From Oscillatoriophycideae cyanobacterium NC_groundwater_1537_Pr4_S-0.65um_50_18 (lineage in GTDB: Bacteria > Cyanobacteriota > Cyanobacteriia > Elainellales > Elainellaceae): DNA of 64,000 bases. The stretch spans positions 62,001 through 126,000 of the forward strand of contig JACQYI010000060.1 of assembly GCA_016208305.1 (NCBI GenBank), given 5' to 3'. The notes under the pieces are model-generated. The model was not told the DNA's origin. It saw only the letters and a list, made by a program, of their open reading frames with translations, and searched no databases. A program made the position numbers and the translations under genes. Below are positions 35,136 to 57,380 of this stretch, piece after piece (positions within the stretch are counted from its first letter, which is position 1; every line of letters starts with the position of its first letter).

Positions 35136-35714
35136 CTAAATAATCAGATTCTCAGGAATCATGTTTTCACTCGCCACATATTGGAACTCCTCAAGAATTG
35201 AGAGTAATTTGAGGAGTTGATTTTTAGTGTTTGTGGTTCTAAATTGTAGATCTAGTAACTTGTTTGTAATATCATCCGAATTAGAATTTATTTGACTTGC
35301 CTGAATTGAACGAGTCAGATCATATTCTGCCTGATTCAAGGATAGTTCTGCGTGCTTAAGTTCTGAGATAGCTTGATGAATCGACTTCAAAGCAACAGCA
35401 AGGTAAACTTCGGAATCTAAAACTGAGTTTGGAAATATACTAGCAACTGTTGTCATCCTATCAGTTCCTGTCTCATCCAAAGAGCAAGAATCAAGTTCAC
35501 CAGAGATGCAACGCCAATCAAGTTGAAGAATTGCACAAAACTTTTGAAAGTTCCAAGCCGAGACAGGCTTTCCATTAACAAAATTACTAACAGGTGTTCG
35601 TGTTTTAAGCATAGCAAGCTGAGCAAGTGCTTTATGAGTAAGACCACAATCTGCCATAGCTCTTCTGATTAAGTCTTGTCCTATCCGGGACGCTGTGTAA
35701 ACTTTCTTAGGCAT
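35136..35714 (-). CDS. HTH-domain protein, cyanobacterial type, with coiled-coil C-terminus
   Basis: A 192-residue protein. The first 75 residues (GQDLIRRAMADCGLTHKALAQLAMLKTRTPVSNFVNGKPVSAWNFQKFCAILQLDW) are an XRE-like helix-turn-helix of the kind found at the N-terminus of many cyanobacterial signalling and STAND proteins. The last 90 residues are helical and probably coiled coil (LNQAEYDLTRSIQAS ... TKNQLLKLLSILEEF). No enzymatic domain is present. It is the last gene of the minus-strand mobile module and could be its regulator. Confidence 0.62.
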   Translation of the reverse strand: MPKKVYTASRIGQDLIRRAMADCGLTHKALAQLAMLKTRTPVSNFVNGKPVSAWNFQKFCAILQLDWRCISGELDSCSLDETGTDRMTTVASIFPNSVLDSEVYLAVALKSIHQAISELKHAELSLNQAEYDLTRSIQASQINSNSDDITNKLLDLQFRTTNTKNQLLKLLSILEEFQYVASENMIPENLII

Positions 35715-35812
35715 AATTCATGTTGCTGCGAAGTTATAGCTATCAAAATCAGAAGATAGTCATTGATAGAAGTTTGAGTTTACGAGGCAATCAACGACAC
35801 ATTAATTAGTAT

Positions 35813-36322
35813 TCAAACAGGTGAGCACGGTCTAATAGGGCATTGTTCAGCTCGAAAATAAATAAATGACTTATACTCAGACAGCTTCAAGTTGTGATGC
35901 TGATTGATATAAATCAAAACGTCCCTCAAGTGATTTTCTATTTGCTTTTTAGTGAAACTGAATGTGTGTTCAGGGAAGCTGGAACGCAACTTCCCATCAA
36001 TCCAAAGTTGAACAATAACCGAATGAACTGGACTGTATGCATTGTCAGCAAAAATTTGCACAAAGGCACAAGGGACTGACAAGCTTAATTTGCATTCTAT
36101 AATCTTAACCTCTTGTATTTCAAATTCCTTCACATCAGCAGTAGGACTCTTCTCGCTCTTTTGAAGCTGTCTTTTGTTACAGGCATATTTCTGATCAACG
36201 TACTGCCATTGCTTTATTGAACAGGGATTATTAGTCCAACAATTTTCCTGACAAAGCTCAATTGTGTGATGACATGGCAACATTGCATACTGAAAACACT
36301 GTTTACAAATCTGATGTGACAT
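35813..36322 (-). CDS. Cysteine-rich hypothetical protein
   Basis: About 169 residues. The N-terminus has a putative zinc site, CKQCFQYAMLPCHH ... CQENCWTNNPCSIKQWQY, and the C-terminus ends FRAEQCPIRPCSPV. The N-terminal pattern (CxxC, then CW followed by a C and a basic Q/Y-rich stretch) is also seen in the protein at 39666, so the two share a domain. The start at 36322 has AGGA seven bases upstream. Function unknown. Confidence 0.55.
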   Translation of the reverse strand: MSHQICKQCFQYAMLPCHHTIELCQENCWTNNPCSIKQWQYVDQKYACNKRQLQKSEKSPTADVKEFEIQEVKIIECKLSLSVPCAFVQIFADNAYSPVHSVIVQLWIDGKLRSSFPEHTFSFTKKQIENHLRDVLIYINQHHNLKLSEYKSFIYFRAEQCPIRPCSPV

Positions 36323-36455
36323 TTTAATTCCTTTGTCTTGAATTACTTTATCTGCCAACGCGCCTTTACCCTATAGATGATTAGTGGTTGTATTCAACAT
36401 TGCATGTCCAGCAAATATAACAAGCAGCGCTTTTCAACATTTTTGAATCGATTTG

Positions 36456-36485
36456 TGACAGGATCTAATCGAATTAATGACAGGA
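36456..36485. repeat. Two TGACAGGA direct repeats, 22 bp apart
   Basis: TGACAGGA occurs at 36456-36463 and 36478-36485, two helical turns apart, in AT-rich non-coding DNA downstream of the TnsB-like pseudogene. Repeated TGACA-type boxes are a feature of Tn7-like transposon ends, but only two are seen here. Otherwise 36323-36642 contains no gene I can recognise. Confidence 0.3.
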
Positions 36486-36642
36486 CTAAACTGCTGACTC
36501 ATCAAGCTTGATTTATCCATTCGCTAAAACTCCGATCCATCAATGCTTATGGCATGTCAGATTGTCTCTAGACTTTTCCTGATATGGATTCAACCGCTGG
36601 AAACCTGGAAAAGTTGGTGCCCCTGTATGCAGGCTAATCTTG

Positions 36643-37768
36643 CTAAGAATGGAACCTTTTCAAAATGGATGAAGTCGAGCTTCGATTGGAAGATTGAAAA
36701 ACTGCAAGTCGATTAGAACCCGTTTGACTCTGCAAAGAGAACTCTGAATAATACATCATCTTTTCTGGCTCTCCTGTCTCAATGCTGCGGACTTCAGTTA
36801 AGAGTTGCAGAACTTGCAAATAGAACCCTTTCCGATGGTCTATATTTTTTCATAAATTGCTGAAATTCTATAACAGAACAAATAATTGGAGGAGCATTTT
36901 TGCCAGTGAGTTGAATCCACTTCTTGTTCACAAAGGCGTAGGCAACAGAAATATCTTCAGGGTGGTAGCGAACAGGTACTCGAGTGCCGACAACGGATGG
37001 GGCTGCAAGCTTGGGGTGAGAATACCTTAGAGAATTGATCATAATGTCACAGGGTTGAGAGATCGGTATGGTCTTTCCTGGCGTACTGGGCAAAGTCAGG
37101 ATTTCAACAACGGGGTTGTAAATGAATTGTTGGAAAGTATTTCCACTTTGGCTTTCCTCTTTAAAGCTCTCTCTGACTTCTAGTGTCCAGTTCGCATAAC
37201 GCTGAAGGCCGGCTTCTATTAGCTGGCGCACTTCAGTAAGTAGAAGGGGTTTAGTTTTAGCAGAGCAGTCGTGGGAAGAACCCAGACGATCACCAACTAG
37301 GTCTGCTAAGAAATGTTCGATACGACCCCCAGGTAGGATTGGATGATAGGGTGAAGGCCATGCTAAAACCAATGACAAGTAGGCGGCGGCTGCATCAAGT
37401 TGACTACCTCGAAGCTCGCGATCGTCAATATATAAAACTTTGGGAAAAGTACCAAAACGACGGACACAACTTCTGAGAAGCATCAGTATGTAAATCTCAC
37501 TTGGACGAGCGAGAGAAACGTAGGATGAAAGAGGACGATTGTCCCGCTTGTCGAGTAGTACTCCAAGCCACGGTTTTTCACAAACAACTTCACCATCAAG
37601 TGAGGAGATGACTGGTTGATTGATCTTTGAACAAATAATCCAACTCTCTTCAGAGGGATGTAGCATGGAATTTAAATTAGATTCAGGTTTTCGTATAGAC
37701 ATATTTTCACCATTGCCCGTTTTAGGTAGATCGAAATGAGTTGGGTCGGCTTCGATGAACGCACAGCT
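36643..37768 (-). pseudogene. TnsB-like (Mu/Tn7 type) DDE transposase, truncated and frameshifted
   Basis: The readable part corresponds to the catalytic core and beta-barrel of TnsB-type transposases: CEKPWLGVLLDKRD, RSCVRRFGTFPKVLYIDD with the second aspartate, YHPILPGGRIEHFLADLVGD with the glutamate, and VGTRVPVRYHPEDISVAYAFVNKKW. The first aspartate is probably in IEADPTHFDL at about 37747, upstream of the first ATG. At an A6 run (36845-36850) the frame shifts. Skipping one base gives a further 65 residues (FYLQVLQLLTEVRSIETGEPEK ...) ending at 36643. The N-terminal DNA-binding half is missing. It is probably inactive. Confidence 0.72.
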
Positions 37769-37871
37769 CTAGAAACCCTGTCTTGTAATTTGCTATTGAC
37801 ATATAATCCCGAAAGCTTTCCTGCTTCTCAGCACTCTCTAAGAATGAACCAAAGAACATTATTAAAAATGC

Positions 37872-38588
37872 TCAGTTGTGTCTTAGATTAGATGTCTCTG
37901 GAAATAATCGATTTATAATGTCCAAAACAGCTAAAGATTGCAACAAATCCCCCTCCTTACGGAAAAAAAAGTCCGCCTGCTGAAGGTCTGAGAGTGCTTT
38001 TGCATTTGAGATAGAAGGATCTAGCACACATACTGTTGCTCGATTCGCGTAATAACTACCGCAAGGACTTAGCTCAATCGCTTTACTTAAATCGGCATAG
38101 GCTTCCTGGTAATCACAAAAATTCTTCCTAACCAATCCACGATACGCATGAGCATTAGCACAGCTTGGATTTAATTCCACTGCTTTAGAGAGATGCTCTA
38201 AAGCACATGAGAAGTTTCCTGAATCAGCTTGTAGCATACCCAAACAAAGATGTGGCAAGTAATAATTAGGCTCCATTTGGATGGCAGTTGAATAATCCTT
38301 ACTCGCAAGTTCATTATCATGAGCTGACTGCCATAAGTTTCCTCGATTGCAGTAAGCATCCACATAATTTGGATCTAAATGAATTGCCAAATTGAGGTCT
38401 TCGATAGCATCCTGAATCTTACCTAGTGCATGTCTTATCGTTCCGCGATTAGCATATAAATTGGCATCTTTTGGGAAACGTCGAATAAGTGCATTGAAGT
38501 CCTGAAGTGCTTCCTTATAGCTACCATTTAAGGCTTTTTCTACAGCCTTTTCCTTGATTTTCTCTTTCTGCTCAAGTGAATTGCACAT
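37872..38588 (-). CDS. TPR-repeat protein
   Basis: About 238 residues made of five to six tetratricopeptide repeats (for example ALQDFNALIRRFPKDANLYANRG, AIEDLNLAIHLDPNYVDAYCNRG, ALEHLSKAVELNPSCANAHAYRG), a scaffold for protein contacts. There is no enzymatic domain, signal peptide or membrane segment. GGAAGG lies seven bases before the ATG at 38588. It lies between the second MuB-like ATPase and the TnsB relic on the same strand; any tie to transposition is speculation. Confidence 0.82.
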   Translation of the reverse strand: MCNSLEQKEKIKEKAVEKALNGSYKEALQDFNALIRRFPKDANLYANRGTIRHALGKIQDAIEDLNLAIHLDPNYVDAYCNRGNLWQSAHDNELASKDYSTAIQMEPNYYLPHLCLGMLQADSGNFSCALEHLSKAVELNPSCANAHAYRGLVRKNFCDYQEAYADLSKAIELSPCGSYYANRATVCVLDPSISNAKALSDLQQADFFFRKEGDLLQSLAVLDIINRLFPETSNLRHN

Positions 38589-38851
38589 AAATCTACCTTC
38601 CTTTTTACTTCTGATAGACACGGGAAGAATATTTGTTGAGAAATGGGAATATTGAGAATTTCTCGTTTGCGGAGTAATTAGTAGGTTGTGCAGCTCATAT
38701 TAGTTATCCGCGCAACCCTCTCAAGTCGGTCAATAAGCCTGTTTGGTTCCAGCTATCGTGACAATGATCAAAGCATAGAAGGTTTTTCTGTCTCAGAAAC
38801 CTGAAGGATAGAACGAGAAACCGTAGATTTCCTCCTATTTTCCAGCCTGAG

Positions 38852-39574
38852 TTAAACAGGTTTACAAGCTTTGAGTTGCCTTCCCAAAAAAAACTTTCTG
38901 TTGCCCCAATGTTGAAGATCAATTGACTCTAAACCTTGATGCTTAGCAAAGGATTCAATCCTACTTAAACCAGCGCAAATAAGCCGAATATTACCATATG
39001 AGTCACTGTGCAACTTTTCAACTAAATCCACCGAAGCTTTTACTTCACACAATTCATGTGCAAGACGATGAGTATCCTCTAAATTGCAAGGTTCAAACAC
39101 AACTTCTTGTGAGGTACGTCCTGCCATTGCTTTGAAATTCGTTAATTCTCGCTCAATTTCTTTAGTTCCGATCAACCAAACGGGTTGCCTGCTTGTATCA
39201 TGAATATCTCGTGCTATTTCTAGCAATAGTGGATTTTTCAGGAGATAATCGGCTTCGTCAATAAATAAAGGTAGTCCCCTAGCTTTCATCGCTTCAACAA
39301 TTTTTCTGACTCTTGTAGCGATAGTTCTCTCAGGAGTTGCTGATAATTCTTCATATATCGCTTTGGTCATTTCATTTAAAGACCAAAATGCTCCTGCTCG
39401 GACGTAGATTCCTCCTACACCATGTATTAGATAAACAATTGATGTAGATTTACCACTGCCTGTTTGACCAAATACCACACTAATACGGTCAAGCGATGGC
39501 GCAGTGTTTCTTATTTCTTCAAAGCTGTTATGAAGGGTTAAGAGATTTTCGACTCTAACAAATTTACATCTCAT
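38852..39574 (-). CDS. MuB-like AAA ATPase, second copy
   Basis: A 240-residue AAA+ ATPase of the MuB/TnsC kind, which selects target DNA and activates the transposase. Walker A is VVFGQTGSGKSTSIVYLI and Walker B LPLFIDEADYLL, followed by EIARDIHDTSRQPVWLIGTKEIE with a sensor-like region and RLICAGLSRIESFAK near the end. It is clearly a paralogue of the ATPase at 41357 over its whole length. Both lack the N-terminal HTH of phage Mu MuB. AGAGG precedes the ATG. Confidence 0.85.
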   Translation of the reverse strand: MRCKFVRVENLLTLHNSFEEIRNTAPSLDRISVVFGQTGSGKSTSIVYLIHGVGGIYVRAGAFWSLNEMTKAIYEELSATPERTIATRVRKIVEAMKARGLPLFIDEADYLLKNPLLLEIARDIHDTSRQPVWLIGTKEIERELTNFKAMAGRTSQEVVFEPCNLEDTHRLAHELCEVKASVDLVEKLHSDSYGNIRLICAGLSRIESFAKHQGLESIDLQHWGNRKFFLGRQLKACKPV

Positions 39575-39665
39575 GCAGTTACCTCTTCTGAAATCTTTTT
39601 TATGGATTGTGCGTACTGTGCAAGAATGAACAGAAACAGTTCTAATACTTTTCAGAAAATTTGAC

Positions 39666-40436
39666 TTATAAGGTTAAATCGGAGTGACGATCAAAAGCAT
39701 ACTTATCGTAGAATAAACCTTCATTAAATGGCTCATATACTGTCTGAAGATTGACGTCATAAATAACTCCTTCTTCACAGATTATTGGTGCGATCGGACC
39801 AGAATCGCGTATTAGTTGGAGAACAGATTCAGGACCTATTAATTTATCGTTCCACTTCTCTAATAATTTGACGTAGCCAGTAGCTAATAGTTTGAGAATA
39901 TAGAAAACTATTAGATCTTCATTTATAAGATCTTCTTCGTAAGAACTTTGAATTTGCTGAACATTAAAGCAACCCAAAATGCGAATGCTGCTCCAAATCA
40001 GCTTATAAAAGTAAATTCTATTGTTTCTTTCCATACATTTTAGATTCTGAAATTCAACTTGTAGCAATGGATTAACTTTGATCGTTAATACAGTAAAAGA
40101 TTTGATTTCCATTTCTATATATCCTGCAACCTCTAGGGAAGTTGCGAGTTCTAACATCCTTTGGAGGTAAGATACTGCAGTAGAATTTCCTGGTACTCCA
40201 ACCGACAAAAATGGTAATTCTTGCAAACTGTTGGAGCAGGAGCCAATTGGCTTTGGGGAGTAGGAGCCAACTGGCTTTGGGAGTTCAAAACGTTTTCTAT
40301 ACTGACTGCGTTTTGAACGACAATTCCTGTGATTCCAACAATGTTCTTGAATACCATTCTCACCATGTAATCGCTTCACTTCTTCCATAGGCAAAGCGGC
40401 GCAGATTCGGCATTTTTCTGAAATAAGTCGTGGCAT
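39666..40436 (-). CDS. Zinc-site plus winged-helix-like protein of the transposition module
   Basis: About 256 residues. The first 40 residues carry a putative zinc site (CRICAALPMEEVKRLHG ... HCWNHRNCRSKRSQYRKR), similar in layout to the protein at 35813. The C-terminal half (LIWSSIRILGCFNVQQIQSSYEE ... LLATGYVKLL ... LIRDSGPIAPII ... VIYDVNLQTVYE) matches the C-terminal half of the protein at 40828, including the L-I-R-[DN]-S-G-P-[IL]-A-P signature. It may be a fusion of the two types. It is the first gene after the hairpin at 40708 and is followed by the second MuB copy. Confidence 0.65.
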   Translation of the reverse strand: MPRLISEKCRICAALPMEEVKRLHGENGIQEHCWNHRNCRSKRSQYRKRFELPKPVGSYSPKPIGSCSNSLQELPFLSVGVPGNSTAVSYLQRMLELATSLEVAGYIEMEIKSFTVLTIKVNPLLQVEFQNLKCMERNNRIYFYKLIWSSIRILGCFNVQQIQSSYEEDLINEDLIVFYILKLLATGYVKLLEKWNDKLIGPESVLQLIRDSGPIAPIICEEGVIYDVNLQTVYEPFNEGLFYDKYAFDRHSDLTL

Positions 40437-40707
40437 ACAGAACTCTTTAAGCAATAACCTTCACGCTTCGATGAGCTGTTCAGATCGATCTTTATCAGCC
40501 TTCGTACGCGATAAACTAATAATTGCACGAGGCAGATTCACATAAAATACACAGACATGTGAAAAAGCAAAAAGGGTTTCTAACTGGGTTAGAGTATATG
40601 CACAAATTTGTGAATTATGGCGTAGTAAAGCCTCTAATAATGTTGGAATCTATGTGTTCAGAGCCAAATCATCAAAGATATTTTTCAGACTATTCAACTG
40701 CAAGAAA

Positions 40708-40742
40708 GAAGTGCCTACAAATTAATGTAGACACTTCTTTTT
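40708..40742 (+). terminator. Rho-independent terminator-like hairpin between the two MuB modules
   Basis: GAAGTGCCTACA-AATTAA-TGTAGACACTTC followed by TTTTT: an 11 bp stem with one mismatch and a T-run on the plus strand. Read from the minus strand it is followed by the T-rich CTTTCTT, so it may work in both directions. It lies 86 bp beyond the stop of the gene at 40828 and separates the MuA-MuB module from the second MuB module. No gene is convincing in 40437-40827. Confidence 0.65.
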
Positions 40743-40827
40743 AGAAAAATTACACTAGAGGAATAAATCAATCTTTGCTTACTATTGATGCTTCTCAGAC
40801 TATTCAGCACAAAATGTCGATGAATTA

Positions 40828-41364
40828 TCAGATTTCTCGACTTCGCTCAAATATCTCTTTTGAATTTGGATCAAATACTGTTTTGTCTCGTCTTGGAACA
40901 GGTGCGAGAGGTCCTGAGTTGCGAATTAACTGATAAGTGTTGCAATCTGTAGATCCATTCAGTCGTTTCCGCGTTACCCGCAAATAACCTGCTTCAAGAA
41001 GATAGCGCACATATTTTTTAACGTTCTCTTCGGAAATTTCAACACTGATTTGCAAGTCAGATAGGGAAAAAAGACGTAGAATTCGCATGGCTATCCATGC
41101 TTTTCTTCTACTACTGTTTGGTTTTATATGTGCATTGGGTACAGTCGGTAGCTGCACTAATCTGTAAATAGCCCCTCCTGCCTTGCCATTGTGACGTTCG
41201 TGCACTAATTCTAAGCAATTTTGTTCGAGAGCTTGATGAACAAAACGTTGAACTGCTGACCGAGAAACTTCAGATTCTAACTGAAGTTCTTCGATCGAAA
41301 ATTGCTTCAAGCGCAACATAGACGCTCTAATCTGTATTTGAGCTTGACGATTTCTTCTAGGCAT
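40828..41364 (-). CDS. Winged-helix DNA-binding protein of the transposition module
   Basis: About 178 residues containing two winged-helix-like segments: LKQFSIEELQLESEVSRSAVQRFVHQALEQNCLELVHERHNGKAGGAIYRLV, then MRILRLFSLSDLQISVEISEENVKKYVRYLLEAGYLRVTRKR, then YQLIRNSGPLAPVPRRDKTVFDPN. Proteins with this LIRxSGPxAP-DPN signature are found next to MuA and MuB in transposable phages; their job is not settled. The start at 41364 overlaps the end of the MuB gene by 8 bp, so the two are translationally coupled. Confidence 0.7.
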   Translation of the reverse strand: MPRRNRQAQIQIRASMLRLKQFSIEELQLESEVSRSAVQRFVHQALEQNCLELVHERHNGKAGGAIYRLVQLPTVPNAHIKPNSSRRKAWIAMRILRLFSLSDLQISVEISEENVKKYVRYLLEAGYLRVTRKRLNGSTDCNTYQLIRNSGPLAPVPRRDKTVFDPNSKEIFERSREI

Positions 41365-42073
41365 CATTTTTAAGCTCTTTGGTGAGAAAGAATGGCTTCT
41401 CGCCCCATTCCTTAGCGTCAATTGAGTCCATCGCGCGTGATTTGGCAAATGATTCAATCCGACTTAACCCAACTGTTACACGGCGAATGCTTCCATTCGC
41501 CTTACTGTGAAGAAGTTCTATGAGATCATCGCTGACTTTGACTTCACAAAGTTCATCAGCCACTTTCTTCGCATCACTTGAATCCAATTTATGGAACTGA
41601 ACCCATTGAGAAATTCGATCTGAAATTTTAGCTCGATTCACAATTTTCTTTTCCAAGCCATCAGCGCTGATAAACCACACAGGTTTCTTTGAGAGATCGT
41701 GAATATCTCGGGCAACTTCAAGCATCCTAGGATTCCTGAGTAAATAATCGCTCTCATCAACAAAGAGTGGGCGATCTAAAGCTTTCATCTGCTCCACAAT
41801 TGGTTCAAGCATTTTAGACGGTAGATTTAAGGGTTCCAAAGACAGCTCTTTTAGAATTGCAGTCATCATCTCTGTGAGTGTCCATGTTGCCGCCGCCCTA
41901 ACATAGATACCATTTTCCTTAGTTACCAACCAAGTAGCTGCGGTAGTTTTTCCAAAACCTGGAGGCGCATAAAGAAGCCCCATTTTCGGAACGTCAGAGT
42001 TACTACCTATCGATTCCTCGTAAGCTTTAGAAAGGGAGATTACATTTTTCACTCTTACTAATTTGTGCTGCAT
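41357..42073 (-). CDS. MuB-like AAA ATPase (transposition protein B)
   Basis: A 238-residue AAA+ ATPase of the kind encoded beside MuA in B3/D3112-like transposable phages. Walker A is LLYAPPGFGKTTAATWLV and Walker B DRPLFVDESDYLL, with ARDIHDLSKKPVWFISADGLEKKIV, ISQWVQFHKLDSSDAKKVADELCEVKVSDDLIELLH and GSIRRVTVGLSRIESFAK. Its role is ATP-dependent target-DNA binding and transposase activation. I choose the ATG at 42073 (AAGGAG upstream). It follows the MuA gene and a small orphan gene on the same strand. Confidence 0.88.
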   Translation of the reverse strand: MQHKLVRVKNVISLSKAYEESIGSNSDVPKMGLLYAPPGFGKTTAATWLVTKENGIYVRAAATWTLTEMMTAILKELSLEPLNLPSKMLEPIVEQMKALDRPLFVDESDYLLRNPRMLEVARDIHDLSKKPVWFISADGLEKKIVNRAKISDRISQWVQFHKLDSSDAKKVADELCEVKVSDDLIELLHSKANGSIRRVTVGLSRIESFAKSRAMDSIDAKEWGEKPFFLTKELKNDA

Positions 42074-42136
42074 ACGATAATTGTCTCCTTTGCTATGTGT
42101 AAGAGAAAACAAGGTGAGAGTGTGTCAAGTTGATTG

Positions 42137-42454
42137 TTAAAGCCCGTGAAGGTACTTTTTCAGTTGACACTTTAGTAACTCAGTGGGAATATCACGCTTT
42201 AGGTAAATGCGAAATACTAAATCAATGAATACTTCAAGGTCAAATTCTGCCGTTAATAATTTGTTGGATAGCACAGATGGAGAAGATATGGAAATAACTC
42301 TGCTATTTTTAGCTTGGATAGGTGTCCTCACAAACGTTGCCCGTCTTGTTTGCGGAATCCGATCTTTTATCAAATGGGTACAAGCTGAGGATTTTCCTTG
42401 CCCTTGTAGCTCATAGGTCACTTGCAGTTCCGAGTCGTGAAGGTTGTTGTTCAT
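42137..42454 (-). CDS. Small hypothetical protein between muA and muB
   Basis: About 105 residues of no family I can name (ELQGQGKSSACTHLIKDRIPQ near the N-terminus, FDLEVFIDLVFRIYLKRDIPTELLKCQLKKYL at the C-terminus). It sits neatly between the transposase and ATPase genes on the same strand (gaps about 125 and 60 bp), which supports it being real. An in-frame TTG at 42472 is an alternative start. Confidence 0.45.
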   Translation of the reverse strand: MNNNLHDSELQVTYELQGQGKSSACTHLIKDRIPQTRRATFVRTPIQAKNSRVISISSPSVLSNKLLTAEFDLEVFIDLVFRIYLKRDIPTELLKCQLKKYLHGL

Positions 42455-42580
42455 AGGAGGATAGTTGCTCAAGGGATTGATTTAGCTCAGTGAGTAGCCT
42501 ATTTAGAAAAAACTCAATGAATTCTAAAGGTTATGAAATAGTGAAATCATTCTGAGTTAGGTTGGGAAAAACACGAATGA

Positions 42581-45100
42581 TTACACAGGTAATGCATTCT
42601 CAAGCCAATCACGAAATCTATGGTGGTCCTGGTAATCCTCCAGTAAGGCTTTGAGTGCACCTTTACCTGAATACTGCTGAATATAATTTTTAACTAACTC
42701 CTTATGAGTAGATGTAATCTCTTGATTGCCTGAAATCCATGCAGCAATGGCTTCAGATAGCAGTTTGTCAGGGTCTATATCAGCTTTACTTTCAATTTTT
42801 TCACCTGCAAGCCAAGCTCTAAATTGCTGTTCTTCTTTTTTGGAGTCAGTAATTGCTTTCAAATATGTGGCACCCTCAGGGTTTCCTATGTGTTGCCTTA
42901 CTCGCTCTGATATTTCGGAAGAAATCGCTGCGATATTTGCATCCTGTCGCCATACTTCCAATAGCTCCTCTAGATGCATATTGTGAGTAGCCTTCACCTG
43001 TTTTAAGGCCTCTTTTTGTGCCTCCTCAGCTTCCAATCTTGCTAATTCAGCATGATACTCTTCCGGGGAGATCTGAGGATGCGATTCTTGCTGATTTTCC
43101 CCTAAAATTGCACTTCTGATGGCCTTTAACGCTGGGTACTCATGGAGTGTAGACGGTACATTTATAAGCTTTTCTGGGAAATCTCCCAGTACTGATAAAG
43201 GATCTTCTGCTAATTTGCGTCGTAACGCTTGTCCACGCTTATTTACAAGCTTTATCTCTTGCAAAATCTTTTCAAATGCAATACGTGCATCTCGCGCAAC
43301 TTTCGCTAAATCTAATCCTTTTGCCCCTTCCCATGTTGCTTTGCAGACGAATTCCTTTAGATCAGATGAGCGGTATATATAAATATGTTCGGGTTCTTTG
43401 GGAGAGTAGGTCACGAAAACTCTTTTCCCAATCAATGGGACTAGTTTTGACGCAACATACAACCGGCCTTTAAGCGAAATCCCTTCTCGTCCAACTTTAC
43501 GTGTTCCACCTTTTCCAGGGGCACTCATCATTAGGAAATCTAATTCTCGAGGATCTTCGATTATGCGCTTCTCCCAACCCTCTGCAACTGCTGCTTCTAA
43601 CATTTCTAGAGGAGATTTACCTTCCAGTCCAACGCCTGGGCGCCCATGGGATTTCTGTGCATACTTATCACACCACTTATCACACCACTGCTGAAATTTT
43701 TCCTCATCCATTGCTAGTTCAATAATTTTTTCATCTTTACCATTACGGTTTCTAATTGCTTTTTGATCTTCGACACTATATCCCAGAAATAGTGGTAGCG
43801 TTGCCATATATCGATGCTGAAAAGTTCTATTAAATCTTTCAATAAACGCTTTTTGTTCAGGATGAAAGGGCAAACAGCGAAAGCCCTCTGTTTCAACCCC
43901 CAAATTTGCTAGAAATCGTTGTACTTTGTGACTGATGTAGTCTCGTCCACGGTCAGTTCGGACAGCTTCGGGAACTCCGAATTTAAGAATCGCCATTGCC
44001 AACAAGAGGCAAATAGCATCGGCTTTACTAGTCTCCGACACTAGTATCATAGGTAAACGAGTGTATAGGTCAACGCACGCTACTACAGCAACTCGTTTGA
44101 TTTTTATAGATCCTGCTACCTCATACTTCAGCTTGACGCCGACATTAATACTATCCACCTCCCAAATTTGATTGGGTCGTTCGACTCCCATTGAGCGTGA
44201 ACCAAATGCAGGATATACTGTTCCCTTTGCTCGGCCCGGGTCCATGTAGTCCTGCCACTTTATGGGATTCTCAATACGGAATTTTCGAATCCATGCCCTC
44301 ACTTGCCCAACAGAAAGCTCTTCAGGATCATAACCAAATTCTAGAAGTAGAAGTTCGTGTATAAGGCTCGCTCCCCAATGCCTTCCTCCCGCTGAAATAC
44401 AAACTTCAATATCTTTTTGAAGTTGCTCATCAGAATCGATTCGACCTTTTTGCTTCCGATTACCATATTTGCCTCCCAAAGCTGATACCGTATCTGTTTT
44501 TCGAATTCTATTTTTTCGATTGAGAGTCGATTTGCTGACCAACGGAACTGCCTGATAAACCCAATCAAATAATGCTAATGCCTGTCGATTGTAGGCATTG
44601 CAAAACTCTATCTGACAAACTTCAACAGTTGGAAAATGGGATCCTAGCTTCCGCCAGTGTTCATAGGCCTTAAGAATTTCAATCCAAGCATCAGTACGCT
44701 GGTCTGCTTTCTTCTCATCAGAAGATCGCTTAGCAAGCCTTGATGTTTGGATAATTTTTTCTGCTTCAGGAATACTGTTCTGAAATTCTTCTGTGTACGG
44801 AATACTCGCTGTCGTATCAGTTTGAGGCAATACCTGTTTGACCGCTTGGTTCTCCTCCAAAGGAGAGGTTTCTCCTTGAATATTTCGTATTGAGATTAAT
44901 GCGGTTTTGGTTGCCTCAGGTAAACTCTCAAAGGCATATTCCTGTCCACCACCTTTTCCGCTACGTTTACGAGATCTCCAGCCCTCAGCTTTTGCTTTTC
45001 TAGCTACATTTTCTCGGAGGCGAGGCATACCCGGTAGCCCTGCCAATTCGGAGGGCGAAAACCAAGTTTTTCCTTCTTGCTGTCCTTTATAGATGTTCAT
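42581..45100 (-). CDS. MuA-type DDE transposase
   Basis: About 839 residues. The N-terminus is a Mu-type HTH (GKTWFSPSELAGLPGMPRLRENVARKAKAEGWRSRKRSGKGGGQEYAFESLP). The integrase core has D316 (IWEVDSINVG), D383 (VRTDRGRDY) and E421 (KAFIERFNRTF); the first two are 67 residues apart, as in phage Mu MuA. A beta-barrel region follows (LYVASKLVPLIGKRVFVTYSP), then a long helical C-terminal region, making it about 180 residues longer than MuA. All catalytic residues are intact. The start at 45100 fits the HTH, although the frame is open to 45223. It cuts and joins transposon ends, with MuB as the likely partner. Confidence 0.9.
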   Translation of the reverse strand: MNIYKGQQEGKTWFSPSELAGLPGMPRLRENVARKAKAEGWRSRKRSGKGGGQEYAFESLPEATKTALISIRNIQGETSPLEENQAVKQVLPQTDTTASIPYTEEFQNSIPEAEKIIQTSRLAKRSSDEKKADQRTDAWIEILKAYEHWRKLGSHFPTVEVCQIEFCNAYNRQALALFDWVYQAVPLVSKSTLNRKNRIRKTDTVSALGGKYGNRKQKGRIDSDEQLQKDIEVCISAGGRHWGASLIHELLLLEFGYDPEELSVGQVRAWIRKFRIENPIKWQDYMDPGRAKGTVYPAFGSRSMGVERPNQIWEVDSINVGVKLKYEVAGSIKIKRVAVVACVDLYTRLPMILVSETSKADAICLLLAMAILKFGVPEAVRTDRGRDYISHKVQRFLANLGVETEGFRCLPFHPEQKAFIERFNRTFQHRYMATLPLFLGYSVEDQKAIRNRNGKDEKIIELAMDEEKFQQWCDKWCDKYAQKSHGRPGVGLEGKSPLEMLEAAVAEGWEKRIIEDPRELDFLMMSAPGKGGTRKVGREGISLKGRLYVASKLVPLIGKRVFVTYSPKEPEHIYIYRSSDLKEFVCKATWEGAKGLDLAKVARDARIAFEKILQEIKLVNKRGQALRRKLAEDPLSVLGDFPEKLINVPSTLHEYPALKAIRSAILGENQQESHPQISPEEYHAELARLEAEEAQKEALKQVKATHNMHLEELLEVWRQDANIAAISSEISERVRQHIGNPEGATYLKAITDSKKEEQQFRAWLAGEKIESKADIDPDKLLSEAIAAWISGNQEITSTHKELVKNYIQQYSGKGALKALLEDYQDHHRFRDWLENALPV

Positions 45101-45192
45101 GCCTTGACAAGATGAAAGGGATAGCGATCGCCTAGTGGACTGAGTCAGGTAGCCATAATCTGCTTCTGCATGCAGGTTATAGTCGCATAACC

Positions 45193-45290
45193 CTTGTACA
45201 CATCCAATACAAAATGTGTGCAAGACAAAGTAGAAATGTATTTTCTATACACACACCATTCACAACTCTGTGAAGCCTTGTGTATGAATA
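45193..45290. promoter_or_regulatory. Cluster of TACACA-type inverted repeats between MuA and the AAA pair
   Basis: CTTGTACACAT (45193-45203) and ATGTGTGCAAG (45214-45224) form an inverted repeat with one mismatch. TATACACACACC (45246-45257) and CCTTGTGTATGAATA (45276-45290) add two further half-sites. They lie immediately upstream of the divergent MuA and HTH-AAA genes. They could be repressor operators or transposase end-binding sites of a Mu-like left end. Confidence 0.5.
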
Positions 45291-45407: not shown

Positions 45408-46676
45408 ATGAACGAGCAGCAATTTGAGAGATTAGCCAAAGCGCTATCCAATGCAGAGAAGGAAATATTATGGCTATTTTGGAGTGGAAAGTCCGACGAG
45501 GAAGTTGCGAAGAGCTTGAGTATCACGCCTGCGACCGTCAGAAAACACCTTTCTAACGCAGCCAGAAAATTAGGAGTTAGTAATGAATTTGAGAAGAATT
45601 ACAATCAGCGTGAAAATATTTTAGCCTTGCTTGGAGAGCAAAAGAAGCTTTGGATGTCTATGAATCAAGATAAGTTTGTATCTGAGGATGCTCAGTTCTA
45701 TGTGAGTCGCCCCAAGCTTGAGTCACTTTTTCAAAGGGCTTTGTCGCAGCCTGGTGCATTGCTTCGAGTAAAAGCTCCTCAATCAATGGGTAAAACAACA
45801 CTGATAAATCATTGTTTGAGGCAGATGTCTTCTCAAGGATTTGCTGTTGCTATTTTAAGCCTAAAGTCATTTGATCAAGCAGATTTTTCTAGTCTTGAAC
45901 GCTTTCTACGCATGTTGTGTATAGAAGTCAGTAAAGAACTTAAAATTGACGAAAAACTTGATGAACTCTGGGAAATAAGCTCAGGCAGTAAGAGCAACGC
46001 CACAAGCTATTTCGAAAATTATATTTTAATGAAAACTAAAGAACCATTAATCCTGTGTATTGATGACGTAGATGAAATTTTTTTATACCCAGATATTAGT
46101 CGAGACTTTTTCGGAATGATTCGTGCTTGGTTTGAGCGTGCAATGCGTCGTCCTATCTGGAGGCAGCTAAGGTCATTAATCTCGTACTCTACCGAAACAT
46201 ATATCCAATTGGATATTAATGAATCACCATTTAATGTTGGAGAGTTTATTGAAGTGTCTGAGTTTAGTTCTGAGCAGATACAAGAACTACTCAAAATTCA
46301 CGGACTAGTTCTGGATTCTAATAGAATTCAGCAATTAGAGGAGCTTTTAGGTGGACATCCTCATCTTTTACAGCAAGCCATTGCTTATCTGAAAAAACAC
46401 CCAGAGGTTGAATTTGACCAGTTCTTAACCGATGCTCCTTCGGATGTCGGCATCTATAATCGTTTACTACAAAAATACTTTGTTAATCTGAAAAAATTAC
46501 CGGACTTATCGAAGGCTTTAAAGAATATTCTTAACGCTGAACAAAACCAGCAGATTGAAATCTTAACTGCATATAGATTGCTGAGTATGGGACTTGTCAA
46601 ACGTCAGAATAAGCAGTTGATAATTAGGTGTAATCTTTATCAAAAATACTTTCGTTCTCATATTAAGGAACTCTAA
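45408..46676 (+). CDS. HTH-AAA-like ATPase, first of a coupled pair
   Basis: A 422-residue protein. Residues about 10-65 form a LuxR-like helix-turn-helix ([45 protein letters not shown]). The rest is an AAA-like ATPase of the cyanobacterial AAA_35 type: Walker [21 protein letters not shown], Walker [15 protein letters not shown], then [19 protein letters not shown] and a winged-helix-like end. No effector domain is seen. Its last base is the first base of the next gene (TAATG), so the two are translated together. It is divergent from the MuA gene. Confidence 0.82.
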
Positions 46677-49216
46677 TGTTCGCCCCATATGAAGATATAC
46701 CTAAATACACAGTTGGGGGGACATTACATATTGACGACCCGACCTACATTGTGCGCCAAGCAGATAAGCAGTTTTACGATGCTTTGAAGCGAGGTGAATT
46801 TTGCTATGTCTTAAATGCTAGGCAAGTAGGTAAATCTAGTTTGCAATTACGCACAAAGCACCTACTAGCTCGTGACGGCTTTGCTTGTGCAAATTTAGAT
46901 CTAGTGACGATTAATGATGCAAGTATCAGCATGAACCAATGGTACGAAGGCTTGTTTAATGATTTGTATGAAGAATTTGGACGACCATCCTCCTGGCAGT
47001 CATGGTGGCGACAGCATCACGAACTATCTTCCCCACGACGCTTTAGTGTTTTTATAGATGAAGTATTATTGTCTGAAGTTAAAGATCGAATTATTATTTT
47101 TGTTGATGAGATTGATAGCATTCTTGCACTAAATTTTTCAGTTGATTATTTTTTTAGCCTTATCCGTAGATGTTACAACTCCAGAGCAGACAATCCAGAG
47201 TATGCGAGACTGACTTGGGCACTAATAGGAGCCGCAACCCCTCATGATTTAATCAATAATCCAAATCTAACTCCTTTTAACATTGGGTTACCAATTGAAT
47301 TAACAGGTTTTACACTAGAGGAAGCAGCCCCTTTAGCAAAGGGTTTACAGCATATTAGTGAGAATCCAGTAGATTTACTCGAGGCAATTTTGGGCTGGAC
47401 TGGAGGACAACCCTTTCTAACCCAGTATGTTTGTAGCCTTCTTACAGAGTCGGAACAAATCATACCTTACGGGGAAGAAGAAATTCATGTAGAGAATTTG
47501 ATTAGATCACAATTGATTGATGATTGGGAGTTTAAGTTCAACCTTGACCATTTTGGATCAATCTGTAGGCGTATTACAGGGCGTAGCGAACAAACAATTC
47601 AGTTACTTGGTTTATATCAGCAGGTGCTCCAAGATGGAAAAATTCCAGATAAAGAAAGTAGTGGAACTTTAGAGCTTCGTCTATCAGGTTTAGTAGTTAA
47701 GAGAAATGGTAATTTATGTATTTCTAATCAAATTTATAGGGAGATCTTTACTGCTGACTGGGCAAGCACCATATTAGATTCTTTACGTCCTTATGCAGTT
47801 CAACTGAATAGTTGGATGGCATCTGGAAAAGATCCATCGTTACTACTGAAAGGTGAGGATCTAGAGATTGTATTAGGTTGGCAAGTCGGCAAAAAATTGC
47901 ATGATCAGGATCATGAATTTCTACGAGCCAGCCAACAGCTAGATAAGCTTGTAACCAAGAAAAAATCTCAAAGAGCTTTTGCGTTACTAACTTTAGCAAC
48001 GCTTCTTATAGGCTTAAGCTCTTCATTGTTCTTATGGAATTTATACCAGGCTCTTCCAAAGATAGAAACAGCGAAGACTGCGAGAGCTTTAGAGCAGCAA
48101 AGTGCCCTTGCTTCTAGGCAGTTTGCTTCTGGTTTGGAGATTGAAGCTTTGCTGTTAGCAATGCAGAGTGTTCAGGAACTGCAATCTTTAGTGGAGGAGG
48201 ATACTCTTGTTCAAAATTACCCGGCAGTATCACCTCTATCTGATCTACAAAGTATTTTAGAGAACATTCGTCAGCGTAACGAAGTTAGTTTTTCGGAACA
48301 ATCACTCAACATTAGTATTAGTTCTAATCATCAATTTCTAGCAATTGCGGGAATGAATGGTGATGTCACTCTATACAAACTATTTGGACAAAAACTGATT
48401 GAATTTGATACACAGAAGATTATTAGCATGAGTTTTAGTAGCAATAGCTCCTATCTTGCAGTGGCAGAACTAAATTATGGAGCTAAAGTGTGGGATGTTC
48501 CAAATCAACGGCTTTTGCCCTTTATAGTAAATCATAGAGATATTGTGAGTCTTAGATTTAGCCAAGATAATAGAAGTTTTCAAACTATAGGAGCAGATGG
48601 AGTTATAAAAACTTGGAACTTGTTAGGTCACCAAATTCTTGAGCGAAGACTGAATCGAGATTTTGAGCTAACAACCATGCAGTTAAGTTCAGACGGGAAC
48701 TTTCTAATCATTAATGATAAAGAAACCCGAGAACTTCTGTTTGAAGATTTAAGAAACAATCAAGTTATTCATTTACTTCGATACCAGAACACGGTTCCTA
48801 CAGCAAATTTTAGTTCTAATGGTAATTTAGTAATTGCGGCTGGTATAGAAGACGGAGGTGTGTACTTCTGGGATTTGAGAGGACGACGAATCTCTAAGTT
48901 TCCAATTAATCAAGCTTTAATACAATCTGTCTACTTAAGTTCGAACAGCGAGCGCCTAATTACAGTTGAGCTTAATGGCAAGATTAAGGACTGGGATGTG
49001 TCAGAGTTACGATTAAAAGATCCGGATGAAGCATTACTGATACCTGCTCCCAACGAACGTATTTCTTTGCCAGCTACTCAAGATTCTAGGGGTGACCTAA
49101 CTTTGTATGTTCAGTCCCCTAGTAAATTAATGAAGCGAGGATGTGACTGGCTTCGTGATTACTTTAAGACACATCCTGAGGAATTAGCCAAACTAAGCAG
49201 TTGTAAGAATCGCTGA
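46676..49216 (+). CDS. AAA-like ATPase with membrane segment and WD40-like repeats, second of the pair
   Basis: An 846-residue protein. Residues about 1-390 are an AAA_35-type ATPase opening with [20 protein letters not shown], with Walker [19 protein letters not shown], Walker [14 protein letters not shown] and the [15 protein letters not shown] block. One membrane segment (about 437-460, [20 protein letters not shown]) follows. The C-terminal 300 residues form degenerate WD40/beta-propeller repeats ([56 protein letters not shown]). So an ATPase is anchored in the membrane with a likely sensor propeller on the other side of the segment. It ends 475 bp before DISARM. Related AAA/WD40 proteins are abundant in cyanobacteria and mostly uncharacterised. 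Confidence 0.82.
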
Positions 49217-49691
49217 GAAGCCAGATATAGAGACAGCGAAATACTTCATGACATAGGGGCAAACTCCTACCCCTCAGGATGTTGAGATGCAACCCAGCCA
49301 GTAACTTGCCGAACGGCTACTTTCAACGAGCTTGTACTATTGACTACTAAATCAGAAATCCTGACTAATTTTATTCCTAAAGATGAAGACATACCTTTGG
49401 GGAAAATAAAGTTGCCTCACAAAACTCGCTCAAACTTGAAGTTCTTACAAACTCTTGTGTCTTAATCCTGACTCAGTACCTTTGAGAAAGTTACAGATAG
49501 ATAGAAGCAGGGCACTCTAATAAACAACCCCCATCTGGCGATCGCCTCCTATAAAGGCAACTAAGTCGTCGAACTGGTCTACGTATTTGCACTGATTTAA
49601 CAATTGCTCGTTCCGTGAGCATGGCGGCTCACCTTTGGTGATGCGCTGCGAACACGGCTGGTTTTGCTGCGTATTTTTAAGGGTGGTGCCG
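49217..49691. other. Non-coding gap before DISARM
   Basis: I see no gene. It holds a hairpin GTGAGC-ATGGCG-GCTCAC (about 49615-49632) and a weak AGGGG ... CCCCT stem near 49255 after the AAA/WD40 stop. The DISARM promoter is presumably here. A GCGATCGC octamer at 49538 marks return to HIP1-bearing DNA. Confidence 0.5.
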
Positions 49692-52600
49692 ATGACTGCT
49701 GTCGAGGTTGGAAGCATTGTACGAGTTCGCTCCCGTCAATACCTAGTTGAGGACGTTCTAGCAAAGCAGTCATCACAAGACGACACGCGGATTCGTCTTG
49801 CCTGCTTGGATGATGATGCCCTCGGTGAAGCGCTAGAGGTACTCTGGGAGCGTGAGGTTGATGCACGCCACATTGGAACAACCTCCTGGGAATCAGTTGC
49901 TGCACGAGGATTTGATAATCCCAAATTGTTTTCGGCGTACTTTCATACGCTGCGCTGGAGTTGTGTCACTTCCACTGATCCAAAGCTATTTCAGGCTCCC
50001 TACCGGGCAGGCATTGAGGTGAAAGCCTATCAGCTAGAGCCACTGCGGAAAGCTCTGCTGATGCCTAGAGTCGGGCTATTTATTGCCGATGATGTGGGTT
50101 TGGGGAAGACCATCGAGGCAGGTCTTATTCTGCGCGAAATGCTGATGCGTCAGAAGGTACGGCGGGTTGTTATTTCCTGTCCACCTTCAGTCGTGCGACA
50201 GTGGCAGGAGGAAATGGAAAGCCGATTTGGTTTGACTTTCCTTATTGTCGATCGCGAGTTCTTTGCTAGCCGCAGGCGGGAGCGCGGCTACGGCATCAAT
50301 CCCTGGACAACGCATACCCGGTTCATCATCTCCCATGCACTGCTGCGGGATGAAACCTATGCAGCTCCACTGCGTGATTGGTTAGGGGATTTTTCAGCTG
50401 GGGCAATGTTGATTCTCGATGAGGCGCATAATGCCGCTCCTGCCAGTGGAGCCAAGTATGCAGTGGATTCTCAATTAACCCGAACGGTAAGAGACCTAGC
50501 TCCTCGCTTTGAACACAAGCTCTTTCTCTCGGCAACTCCCCACAACGGACATTCCAATAGTTTTGCGGCATTGCTGGAAATTCTTGACCCGCAGCGGTTT
50601 TGCCGGGGAGTTCCAGTACGAAATCAGAAACTGCTCGATGCAGTAATGGTGCGCCGGTTAAAGAGTGACCTGCGAGAGATTGGAGATGATTTCCCAGAGC
50701 GTCTGGTTATCCGCATCAGTATCGATAATTTGCCGAATGAGGCTCCGGAACTTCGGCTCTCTCGACTGCTACAGGGATATCGTCAGTTGCGAGAAGAGCG
50801 GCTCAAATCGGCTTCTAAAACCGTACAAAGGGCGGCAACCCTAGTATTGTTGTCGTTGCAGAAGCGGTTGCTGTCTTCGATCGAAGCCTTTGCACGAACG
50901 CTGAAAGTGCATCAAACAGCGATCGCTCGACAAATGAATCAAGCAGTCTCTCCAGCGAAGCCACAGGGGAAAAATAACCAGACGTTTTCTCTATTGCAGG
51001 AGTCGGCAGGGGCAGACGACGATCGCGCCGAACTCACTGAAGATGAGGTAGAAGCGGAAGAAGATGCCCAAATGAAGGCGGCAACGGCGCAGGATACGGC
51101 TCTGCCTTCTGAACGGGAATTAGAACTGCTGGAGGAGATGGCGCAGATTGCCAGTGCTGCTCGTCATTTGCCCGACCCTCGTATTCAGAAATTAGCTCAA
51201 TGGATTCGGGATAATCAATGTTCTGATTTGGGGACTTCCAGCGCACGCTGGAATGAACGCCGAGTCATCATCTTCACCGAATACACCGACACCAAACGCT
51301 ACCTGCAACAGCAGCTTCAGAGCGTGATTGCAGGTTCAGATCAGGAACATCAGCGAATTGCCGTTTTCCACGGGGGTATGGGCGACGATCGCCGGGAAGA
51401 AATTAAGCTTGCCTTTAACAGCGATCCTGCCAAACATCCCCTGCGAATCCTAATTTGCACTGATGCTGCACGGGAGGGGGTCAACCTGCAAAATCACTGT
51501 GCTGACCTATTCCATTTTGATCTGCCCTGGAATCCTTCGCGTTTGGAGCAGCGCAACGGACGAATTGACCGCAAGCTTCAGCGATCGCTCATTGTTCGGT
51601 GTCACTATTTCGTCTTACCCCAGCGCAGTGAGGATCGGGTGCTGGATGTGTTGGTTAAGAAGACCGAGATTATTCAGAAGGAACTGGGTAGTCTTTCGCC
51701 AGTTGTGGAGCGAAACGTTACAAAGCTTTTAGCAGACGGCATTCGGCATGGAGAGTTGGAGCGTCTAGAAACGGCGATCGCTAAAGCCGATGAGGTTGAC
51801 CAATCAGCACCAAACGTTGAGGTCATTTCCGAGGAACTGGAGCAAGTACGGCTGCAGCGGCAGGAGCTTGAACAGCAGAACGCACTACTGCAAGAGATGT
51901 TGAGTGAGTCGCAGAAGTGGTTGGGACTGGACGATCGCCACTTCCGCGATGCAATCTCTGCCTCTCTGGAAATTTTGGGAGCCAATTCTCTACAACCTAT
52001 TGATCCGAACGAAGCGGCACATGAGCCTGCGACCGCAAAATGGGATATTCCGGCACTCGATCAGCGGTTTGGTGCTGACCCAACCTGGGCAACCACGCTG
52101 GATTCTTTGAGGGCACCCCGTAAGCGGAATCAGAAGCTGTGGGATTGGCGGCGGGAATCCCCAATTCGTCCCGTTGTATTCCGCGATCCAGGTTCGCTCG
52201 ATGGTGAGGTGGTGCATCTGCATTTGGAGCATCGGGTTGTACAACGGCTCTTGTCACGATTCCTAGCACAGGGTTTTTTACACGCTGAATTGACCCGCGC
52301 CTGTGTTTGTCTGACCGATCGCCCTATCCCCAGCGTAATTGTGTTGGGACGGTTGTCGCTCTATGGCGATCGTGCGTCTCGTTTGCACGATGAAGTGATC
52401 GCAGTTGCGGCAGAGTGGATTGCACCGGAAGCAAGGGGGCGATCGAAGCTGCGTCCTTTAGGCGAGAACGAGAAAGACGATGTGCTGAAGATTCTAGAAA
52501 ACTCATTGGCAAGCCCTCGTCTACGCCAAGTGCCAGAATCCGTGCAGCAGCGATTCAAGCAGGCAGCAGCCCAGGATGTCGAAGAGTTGATTCCCCATCT

Positions 52601-52928
52601 CAATCGACGGGCAGACACTCTGATTGAGCGCTTTAAGAAGCGGCTAGAAGCCCGTGGGAAAAAAGAAGCGGCGGAGATGCGGGCGATTTTGGAGGAACAG
52701 CGCAATCGCATTCTTAAACGGCAAAAGGAGACAGCAGGTGCTCTTCAGCTTTCGCTCTTTGAAGAGATGCAGCAGTTAGAAGCAGATCGTCGCCACTGGG
52801 AGAAGCGGTTGAAGTCTCTGGAAGTGGAGCTAGTCAGTGAGCCAGCTCGCATTGAGGCTTCGTACCAGGTCAAAGCGGTGCGAGTCGAGCCGGTGGGTGT
52901 GGTTTATCTCCATCCCGTTTCAGGTTGA
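49692..52928 (+). CDS. drmD: DISARM helicase DrmD (SNF2-like)
   Basis: A 1078-residue SNF2/SWI2-family ATPase. Helicase motif I is IADDVGLGKTIEAGLILREM (Lys at about 137), motif II LILDEAHNAAP (about 242), motif III LFLSATPHNGHSNSF, and the second RecA domain has RVIIFTEYTDTKRYL, ICTDAAREGVNLQNH and DLPWNPSRLEQRNGRIDR. The C-terminal 300 residues are helical and DrmD-specific. DrmD is the hallmark of class 1 DISARM. I start at 49692 (MTAVEVGSIV), since the preceding frame lacks family sequence. The stop is 14 bp before the methylase start. Confidence 0.93.
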   Translation: MTAVEVGSIVRVRSRQYLVEDVLAKQSSQDDTRIRLACLDDDALGEALEVLWEREVDARHIGTTSWESVAARGFDNPKLFSAYFHTLRWSCVTSTDPKLFQAPYRAGIEVKAYQLEPLRKALLMPRVGLFIADDVGLGKTIEAGLILREMLMRQKVRRVVISCPPSVVRQWQEEMESRFGLTFLIVDREFFASRRRERGYGINPWTTHTRFIISHALLRDETYAAPLRDWLGDFSAGAMLILDEAHNAAPASGAKYAVDSQLTRTVRDLAPRFEHKLFLSATPHNGHSNSFAALLEILDPQRFCRGVPVRNQKLLDAVMVRRLKSDLREIGDDFPERLVIRISIDNLPNEAPELRLSRLLQGYRQLREERLKSASKTVQRAATLVLLSLQKRLLSSIEAFARTLKVHQTAIARQMNQAVSPAKPQGKNNQTFSLLQESAGADDDRAELTEDEVEAEEDAQMKAATAQDTALPSERELELLEEMAQIASAARHLPDPRIQKLAQWIRDNQCSDLGTSSARWNERRVIIFTEYTDTKRYLQQQLQSVIAGSDQEHQRIAVFHGGMGDDRREEIKLAFNSDPAKHPLRILICTDAAREGVNLQNHCADLFHFDLPWNPSRLEQRNGRIDRKLQRSLIVRCHYFVLPQRSEDRVLDVLVKKTEIIQKELGSLSPVVERNVTKLLADGIRHGELERLETAIAKADEVDQSAPNVEVISEELEQVRLQRQELEQQNALLQEMLSESQKWLGLDDRHFRDAISASLEILGANSLQPIDPNEAAHEPATAKWDIPALDQRFGADPTWATTLDSLRAPRKRNQKLWDWRRESPIRPVVFRDPGSLDGEVVHLHLEHRVVQRLLSRFLAQGFLHAELTRACVCLTDRPIPSVIVLGRLSLYGDRASRLHDEVIAVAAEWIAPEARGRSKLRPLGENEKDDVLKILENSLASPRLRQVPESVQQRFKQAAAQDVEELIPHLNRRADTLIERFKKRLEARGKKEAAEMRAILEEQRNRILKRQKETAGALQLSLFEEMQQLEADRRHWEKRLKSLEVELVSEPARIEASYQVKAVRVEPVGVVYLHPVSG

Positions 52929-52942
52929 GGAGGAGTAAAACA

Positions 52943-57034: not shown

Positions 57035-57087
57035 TTTATACTAGAAGCACCTTCCTGAATCGTGGATCTCCACCGCGAGCCAGTTCT

Positions 57088-57234
57088 ATGACGCTCGCCA
57101 CCCAAAAGCTGACGTTTGAAGAGTACCTTGCCTACGACGATGGTACAGATACTCGCTATGAATTAGTCGATGGAGAATTGGTGCCCATGAGTCTGGGAAC
57201 TGGCAAACATGGGGCAATTATAGGCAAACTTTAG
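57088..57234 (+). pseudogene. Uma2-family endonuclease gene, N-terminal fragment
   Basis: Forty-eight codons from the ATG at 57088 read [32 protein letters not shown] and [12 protein letters not shown], the start of Uma2 (DUF820) proteins, then TAG. Family members are about 190 residues and have a PD-(D/E)XK nuclease core, which is missing here. It lies inside the DISARM operon between drmMI and drmA, on the same strand. The remaining 57235-57380 shows no gene. Confidence 0.75.
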
Positions 57235-57380
57235 ATTCGCCCACCTCAATTTAGCCATTGAACCCTAATAAATGGCAGAAGTTTTTTCGTCAAACCTTCA
57301 TGAAGTTGGGAAATCTATCCGGGGTTTTCAGGAGATCGTGGGCATTCTAAATTTAATGCCCTTATCCTGACGTGCTGTCT

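Follow-up and report, generated by a model that had tools for sequence, protein, structure and literature searches.

A Mu-type transposition module within a 110,880-bp element carrying defence and metabolic genes in an Elainellaceae cyanobacterium

The genome of phage Mu, the reference point for the locus described here, comprises 37 kb. The Mu-encoded MuB protein forms a coat on Mu DNA and is believed to protect it in this way from self-insertion (PMC2837660). Mu-like cargo transposons are known through examples that bear type I-A or V-F CRISPR systems (reviewed in PMC11656645, PMC12669027), and in Tn7-like elements without TnsA, tyrosine or serine resolvases are predicted to resolve cointegrates (PMC8649781). 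The present locus was found in a 64,000-nucleotide stretch (hereafter the window) from the Oscillatoriophycideae cyanobacterium NC_groundwater_1537_Pr4_S-0.65um_50_18 (contig JACQYI010000060.1, positions 62,001 to 126,000; C55:62001-126000 in our coordinates), which holds a MuA transposase gene with two MuB ATPase genes. All of the window, positions 1-64000, is interior to an element of 110,880 bp (C55:30673-141552), defined by its ends, a TGCCT target duplication and an empty site in three relatives. We consider it very probable that the region houses the engine of a Mu-type cargo transposon, very large and without recognised virus genes. A search of a limited literature collection found no paper on this family or on a family member of this size.

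Ends, target duplication and empty site

Alignments of the DNA of close family members stop at least ~230 bp past the winged-helix gene, always at ...TCTACA or ...TCGACA, and a 32-position end profile was built from six right ends of relatives only. This profile recovered the opposite ends in two plasmids that had been left out of its building. In the 6.9-Mb genome that contains the window, the family end pattern has exactly two matches, which lie on the same contig and face each other, and its reversed control has 0 matches in the same genome. The right end (RE), which begins with TGTAGAGATCGATTTGAATTGAGATCCGAAAC, lies at C55:30673 (window coordinate about -31327, ~31.3 kb before the first base of the window). 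The left end (LE), which finishes with GTCTGAGAGGTCAATCCATTTCGATCTCTACA, lies at C55:141552 (window coordinate 79552), scores 31 bits with the relatives' end profile and shows the pair of inverted sites typical of the family, with a spacing of 109 nt. Identical 5-bp TGCCT sequences stand directly outside the two ends; two facing ends that share this duplication therefore give an element of 110,880 bp. TG..CA termini, repeated sites and a 5-bp target duplication are all present, as at Mu-type ends. An earlier note, made from the letters of the window, had proposed a search for TG..CA ends with such a duplication, and these were found outside the window; an end-profile scan of the 64-kb window alone gave nothing above chance. 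Limits of the element at 35136-45290 were rejected, since the mapped ends lie outside the window, and no end pair around the low-GC stretch at 34.6-49.5 kb fits the family motif, this stretch being merely the low-GC part of the element.

The empty site was sought by joining both flanks and searching genomes of the same family. In three of these (G022, G012 and G014) the flanks are contiguous without the element, and the sequence spanning the join is 76-77% identical. The nearest complete genome of the genus gave no empty site, because synteny with it breaks at a phosphoglucomutase gene. The insertion site lies between a tRNA-Met gene and an apparent integrase N-terminus, the latter recognised by eye with no family search. 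This position, beside a tRNA gene and an integrase-like fragment, together with two tyrosine recombinases inside LE, might point to an island moved by a tRNA-linked tyrosine integrase, with MuA as its passenger. However, MuA-type ends flanked by a 5-bp duplication form the borders, which lie 136 bp from tRNA-Met, not within it; neither borders in the tRNA core nor integrase-made repeats, by which tRNA islands are recognised, were found here; the integrase-like fragment is outside the element; and related genomes keep the tRNA and left flank contiguous without any island. The duplication and empty sites largely refute movement by an integrase, which we regard as scarcely credible.

The transposition module and its relatives

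The core of the module lies on the minus strand. MuA (42581-45100, likely ATG at 45100; an 880-amino-acid open reading frame) is intact, with the Mu N-terminal domain, rve core and Mu-transpos_C domain and the catalytic residues Asp316, Asp383 and Glu421; by sequence it matches the solved Mu transposase N-domain (1tns) first, followed by TnsB, and it is 46-52% identical to MuA of other family members. MuB1, an AAA+ target-selector ATPase (41357-42073; PHROG 296, 1.3e-43), is 48-56% identical to the single MuB of relatives. The third core gene, as in relatives, encodes a tandem winged-helix protein (40828-41367; PHROG 2030, 2.5e-35), whose homologues come after MuB in both elements and prophages. 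Used as a profile, the window's two MuB ATPases match solved phage Mu MuB (8xvb) ahead of TnsC. An open reading frame of 111 amino acids between MuA and MuB1 (42137-42472, minus strand) has no family match and no detectable homology to the small MuB-side proteins of loci L040-L042, which are homologous to each other (L042:11961-12248 and its L040 and L041 counterparts). The features named in the earlier note, i.e., MuA, MuB, winged helix, hairpin, Zn/winged helix, second MuB, TPR gene and transposase relic, are all present on this strand.

Relatives were sought in 390 genomes of the class. MuA relatives occur in 12 of them, the present genome included, and a query with MuB2, the second ATPase of the window, found MuB in the same 12. 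Single-protein MuA pattern scans of genome and viral contigs yielded no relatives, and alignment-based scans returned only the members already known and the distant loci. Seven loci are close, with MuA ~45-52% identical to that of the window: those on plasmids of Chroococcidiopsis CCNUC1 and PCC 7203 and of Leptolyngbya NIES-3755, and those of Aphanocapsa, LEGE 13415 (two) and G142. All have the order MuA-MuB-winged helix with no phage operon adjoining. In the distant relatives (~30%) a long operon comes after these three genes, and a sample of 37 of their proteins includes late activators, terminase subunits, endolysins and a holin; the distant relatives are genuine Mu-like prophages. The present element therefore looks like a de-virused Mu lineage, and the close group, judged from gene content, looks like a non-phage branch of Mu-like phages.

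Within the element itself (92 proteins), no head, tail or terminase family is among the 25 commonest of 77 matched PHROG families, the other 52 having one protein each, in agreement with the earlier note's description of a Mu-like module without phage genes; nor is a late activator, endolysin or holin among the same matches listed for the element. That note had also held that phage genes beside relatives would speak for a degraded Mu prophage, and such genes do adjoin the distant (~30%) prophages, but the close (45-52%) relatives are non-phage elements. Loss of structural genes in this one genome, leaving a prophage relic, would account for a core order that is that of cyanobacterial Mu-like prophages and for the transposase relic nearby. 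Against such decay, the seven close relatives are likewise without phage operons by the core, two of them with defined ends and non-phage cargo, and indicate that phage genes were already missing from the ancestor of this group. Moreover, the present element has intact MuA, MuB and ends, these ends enclose defence and metabolic genes, and 110.9 kb is about three times the length of the Mu genome. A prophage that decayed in this genome is thus very improbable.

Both ends are also defined for two smaller elements. That of plasmid pCHRO.01 comprises 16,846 bp, has a perfect ACGAT duplication on both sides and includes an NB-ARC protein in its cargo; that of NIES-3755 plasmid1 comprises 13,192 bp. 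In each, the MuA module stands at RE and reads outward, the remainder is cargo, and the left end has two inverted sites of 28-35 nt, 109 nt apart. No matching left end was found with confidence for the Chroococcidiopsis pB element or for G142. These two share several DNA segments near MuA with 82-90% identity, which suggests exchange of cargo between distant cyanobacteria.

Other observations on the family can be added. MuA-adjoining cargo DNA is 86-90% identical between L023:3205-9187 and L042:3095-5404, the former on a Chroococcidiopsis plasmid and the latter in a cyanobacterium of another family, a pattern indicative of transfer. MuA is split in two frames, at three different places, in L023:20031-22533, L024:19992-22517 and L042:8448-11131, through decay or frameshifting, and is whole in the window, NIES-3755 and Aphanocapsa. 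Two more end-like sites on pCHRO.01 (L024:30051-30082 and record position 178621) look like leftovers of further family copies; one of them adjoins a tyrosine recombinase, with a Zn gene close by. A MuB relative (29%) at G142:C1:3016536-3017189, in a main contig with no close MuA, may be an orphan or belong to a prophage.

Several points weigh against interpretation of the region as the engine of one very large cargo transposon. The MuA module lies ~72 kb from RE, compared with its place adjoining RE in the two smaller elements, and the element has therefore undergone internal enlargement or fusion. Some cargo may have arrived only once the element was inserted, as the duplication dates the ends and not every gene. 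The end pair of NIES-3755 is without a target duplication. A rare phage gene could be missed, because for the 92 proteins only the commonest PHROG and Pfam families are listed. Finally, current mobility is inferred, as are the replicative route and the resolvase role discussed below.

The second MuB unit and the cargo

The core and a second unit are separated by a hairpin with a short U tract (40705-40740, minus strand; 15 bp, -21.3 kcal/mol, z -4.87). The hairpin, earlier termed terminator-like, is real (z -4.9), but the scan for terminators found no more of them than expected by chance and does not list it. In the second unit, also on the minus strand, a Zn-ribbon-like CxxC domain is fused to a winged-helix C-terminus (39666-40454; the C-terminus is PHROG-2030-like, 3e-15), and in Blast comparisons the fusion protein matches both the first winged helix (wH1) and the Zn proteins that other elements encode. 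It is followed by MuB2 (38852-39574; PHROG 296-type MuB match, 3e-35), which is 45% identical to MuB1 and keeps its Walker motifs. In both ATPases the invariant columns of the family alignment are retained. In the tree, MuB2 falls within the MuB clade of the close group, at a position that is not settled, with a branch of 0.84 vs 0.49 for MuB1. Further genes on the same strand encode a TPR protein (37872-38621; Pfam TPR, 8e-25), a transposase relic of 302 amino acids (36794-37702) in which the region of the first catalytic Asp, by eye, is apparently missing, a degenerate Zn protein (35813-36358) related to the LE-proximal Zn gene at L067:11781-12308 (E=1.9e-6), and a repressor-like helix-turn-helix (HTH) protein (35136-35714; weak PHROG 3 match, 0.003). 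The relic had been reported as one of TnsB; it is a real Mu-transpos_C protein. A test for homology to the element's MuA found none, and there is no blast match between the two.

The earlier note asked whether both ATPases are conserved together and proposed that the second might provide alternative targeting. No counterpart of MuB2 was found in the other MuA loci examined, each of which has a single MuB; the second MuB is therefore not a feature of the family, and its role as an alternative target selector, although the ATPase motifs are intact, lacks support. If MuB2 worked together with a Zn/winged-helix partner of its own, either as an alternative selector or as a dedicated guard against self-insertion, then preservation of the Walker motifs and family-invariant columns and the presence of its own winged-helix neighbour would be understandable, and a self-insertion block like that of phage Mu MuB could matter for a 111-kb target (cf. 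PMC2837660). Its occurrence in one element only and its longer branch, which fits relaxed constraint, make such function unlikely. Viewed together with the additional Zn proteins, the displaced MuA module and the other winged helix, MuB2 is most simply debris or gain from a related element, and acquisition or duplication of such material is the most likely source of the whole second unit.

One origin of such material, compatible with a very large Mu-type cargo transposon, would be the fusion of two related elements into a composite that retains LE of one and RE of the other, has lost the inner ends and one MuA, and keeps the Zn/winged-helix-MuB2 segment as debris. The distance of MuA from RE fits this, and so does the presence of a second MuB, another winged helix and additional Zn proteins close to where the inner junction would be expected. 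Also consistent is the single target duplication shared by the outer ends, which implies that the composite inserted as a unit or that enlargement came later. No inner end and no trace of a second MuA were found, however, and the order of the Zn/winged-helix and MuB2 genes differs from that of a copied MuA-MuB-winged helix module. We entertain fusion as a tentative possibility.

Inward from LE, the cargo consists of two tyrosine recombinases, a GTPase conflict system, class 1 DISARM and an AAA_35 pair. One of the LE-side recombinases is 71% identical to the recombinase beside LE of NIES-3755, and the LE-side Zn protein is 45% identical to its NIES-3755 counterpart. The GTPase conflict system, outside the window and after DISARM (L067:129-6808), encodes GASH, DO-GTPase1, DO-GTPase2, GAP1-N1+EAD1 and EAD1-trypsin. 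The DISARM genes recognised by PADLOC are contiguous on the plus strand (49635-63463) and comprise the class 1 set: drmD (49635-52928, 1119 bits), drmMI (52925-57034, 1507 bits), drmA (57372-60800, 1303 bits), drmB (60801-62663) and drmC (62663-63463). Both systems are predicted to act in defence. Divergent from MuA on the plus strand, the AAA_35 pair encodes a protein with a GerE HTH and an AAA_35 ATPase (45408-46676), in the same place in the NIES-3755 element, and an AAA_35 + WD40-type protein (46676-49216); it possibly serves in defence or in control of transposition. The pair lies directly upstream of MuA in two elements (window 45408-49216; L025:17641-19702), with identities of 34% and 49%. 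The element's metabolic and regulatory genes number in the dozens. The ~66 kb between the second unit and RE carry dehydrogenases, acetyltransferases, P450s, transporters and regulators; in the window this metabolic and regulatory cargo (205-34527) includes short-chain dehydrogenases, acetyltransferases, kinases, regulators, MatE, LysE and others.

Proposed mechanism and comparison with known systems

From the biology of Mu, MuA would bind the arrays of palindrome-centred sites at both ends, pair the ends, and join them with a 5-bp stagger to target DNA picked by the AAA+ MuB. The winged-helix gene is probably a regulator, as it is annotated in related phages. If transposition is replicative, the tyrosine recombinase beside LE probably resolves the cointegrate, by analogy with Tn7-like elements that are without TnsA. 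With the ends, duplication and engine mapped, Mu-type transposition can be tested directly for its mobility, resolution and size limits, and the end motif allows the family to be sought in other cyanobacteria. The borders, duplication and empty sites show that, with packaging lost, the DNA between Mu-type ends can greatly exceed the capacity of a Mu phage head, and that complete candidate defence systems (DISARM and the GTPase conflict system) can sit as cargo in a Mu-type element.

The element shares with phage Mu and Mu-like prophages the domain order of MuA, a MuB-type ATPase, TG..CA ends and a 5-bp duplication, and with cyanobacterial Mu-like prophages the order MuA-MuB-winged helix. It differs from phage Mu in that structural and lysis genes are not recognised, in its length of 110.9 kb vs roughly 37 kb, and in a cargo of defence and metabolic genes; the smaller family elements differ from Mu prophages in having MuA at the right end, reading outward. 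CRISPR-bearing Mu-like transposons (PMC11656645, PMC12669027) are likewise non-phage, cargo-bearing elements with Mu-type transposases, whereas the cargo here is DISARM and a GTPase system. A CRISPR-associated reading of the present element was rejected, as no CRISPR-like array was found.

Tn7-like elements with defence cargo (PMC8649781) have in common with it a TnsB/MuA-type transposase, an AAA+ selector and the defence genes themselves, but the present MuA bears the N-terminal domain of Mu transposase, and for the ATPase the MuB of phage Mu is a better match than TnsC. Neither TnsA nor TniQ is among the Pfam matches listed for the element. The giant Starship transposons of fungi use an unrelated tyrosine-recombinase mechanism in eukaryotic hosts. 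It is conceivable, if speculative and rather doubtful, that the virus-free Mu lineage acts as a Starship-like vehicle, in which MuA/MuB and its own tyrosine resolvase would move defence and metabolic genes, >100 kb in all, from one cyanobacterium to another distant one, with the second ATPase widening or guarding targeting. What the present element and the Starships share, by analogy only, is a very large single element with many host-like genes.

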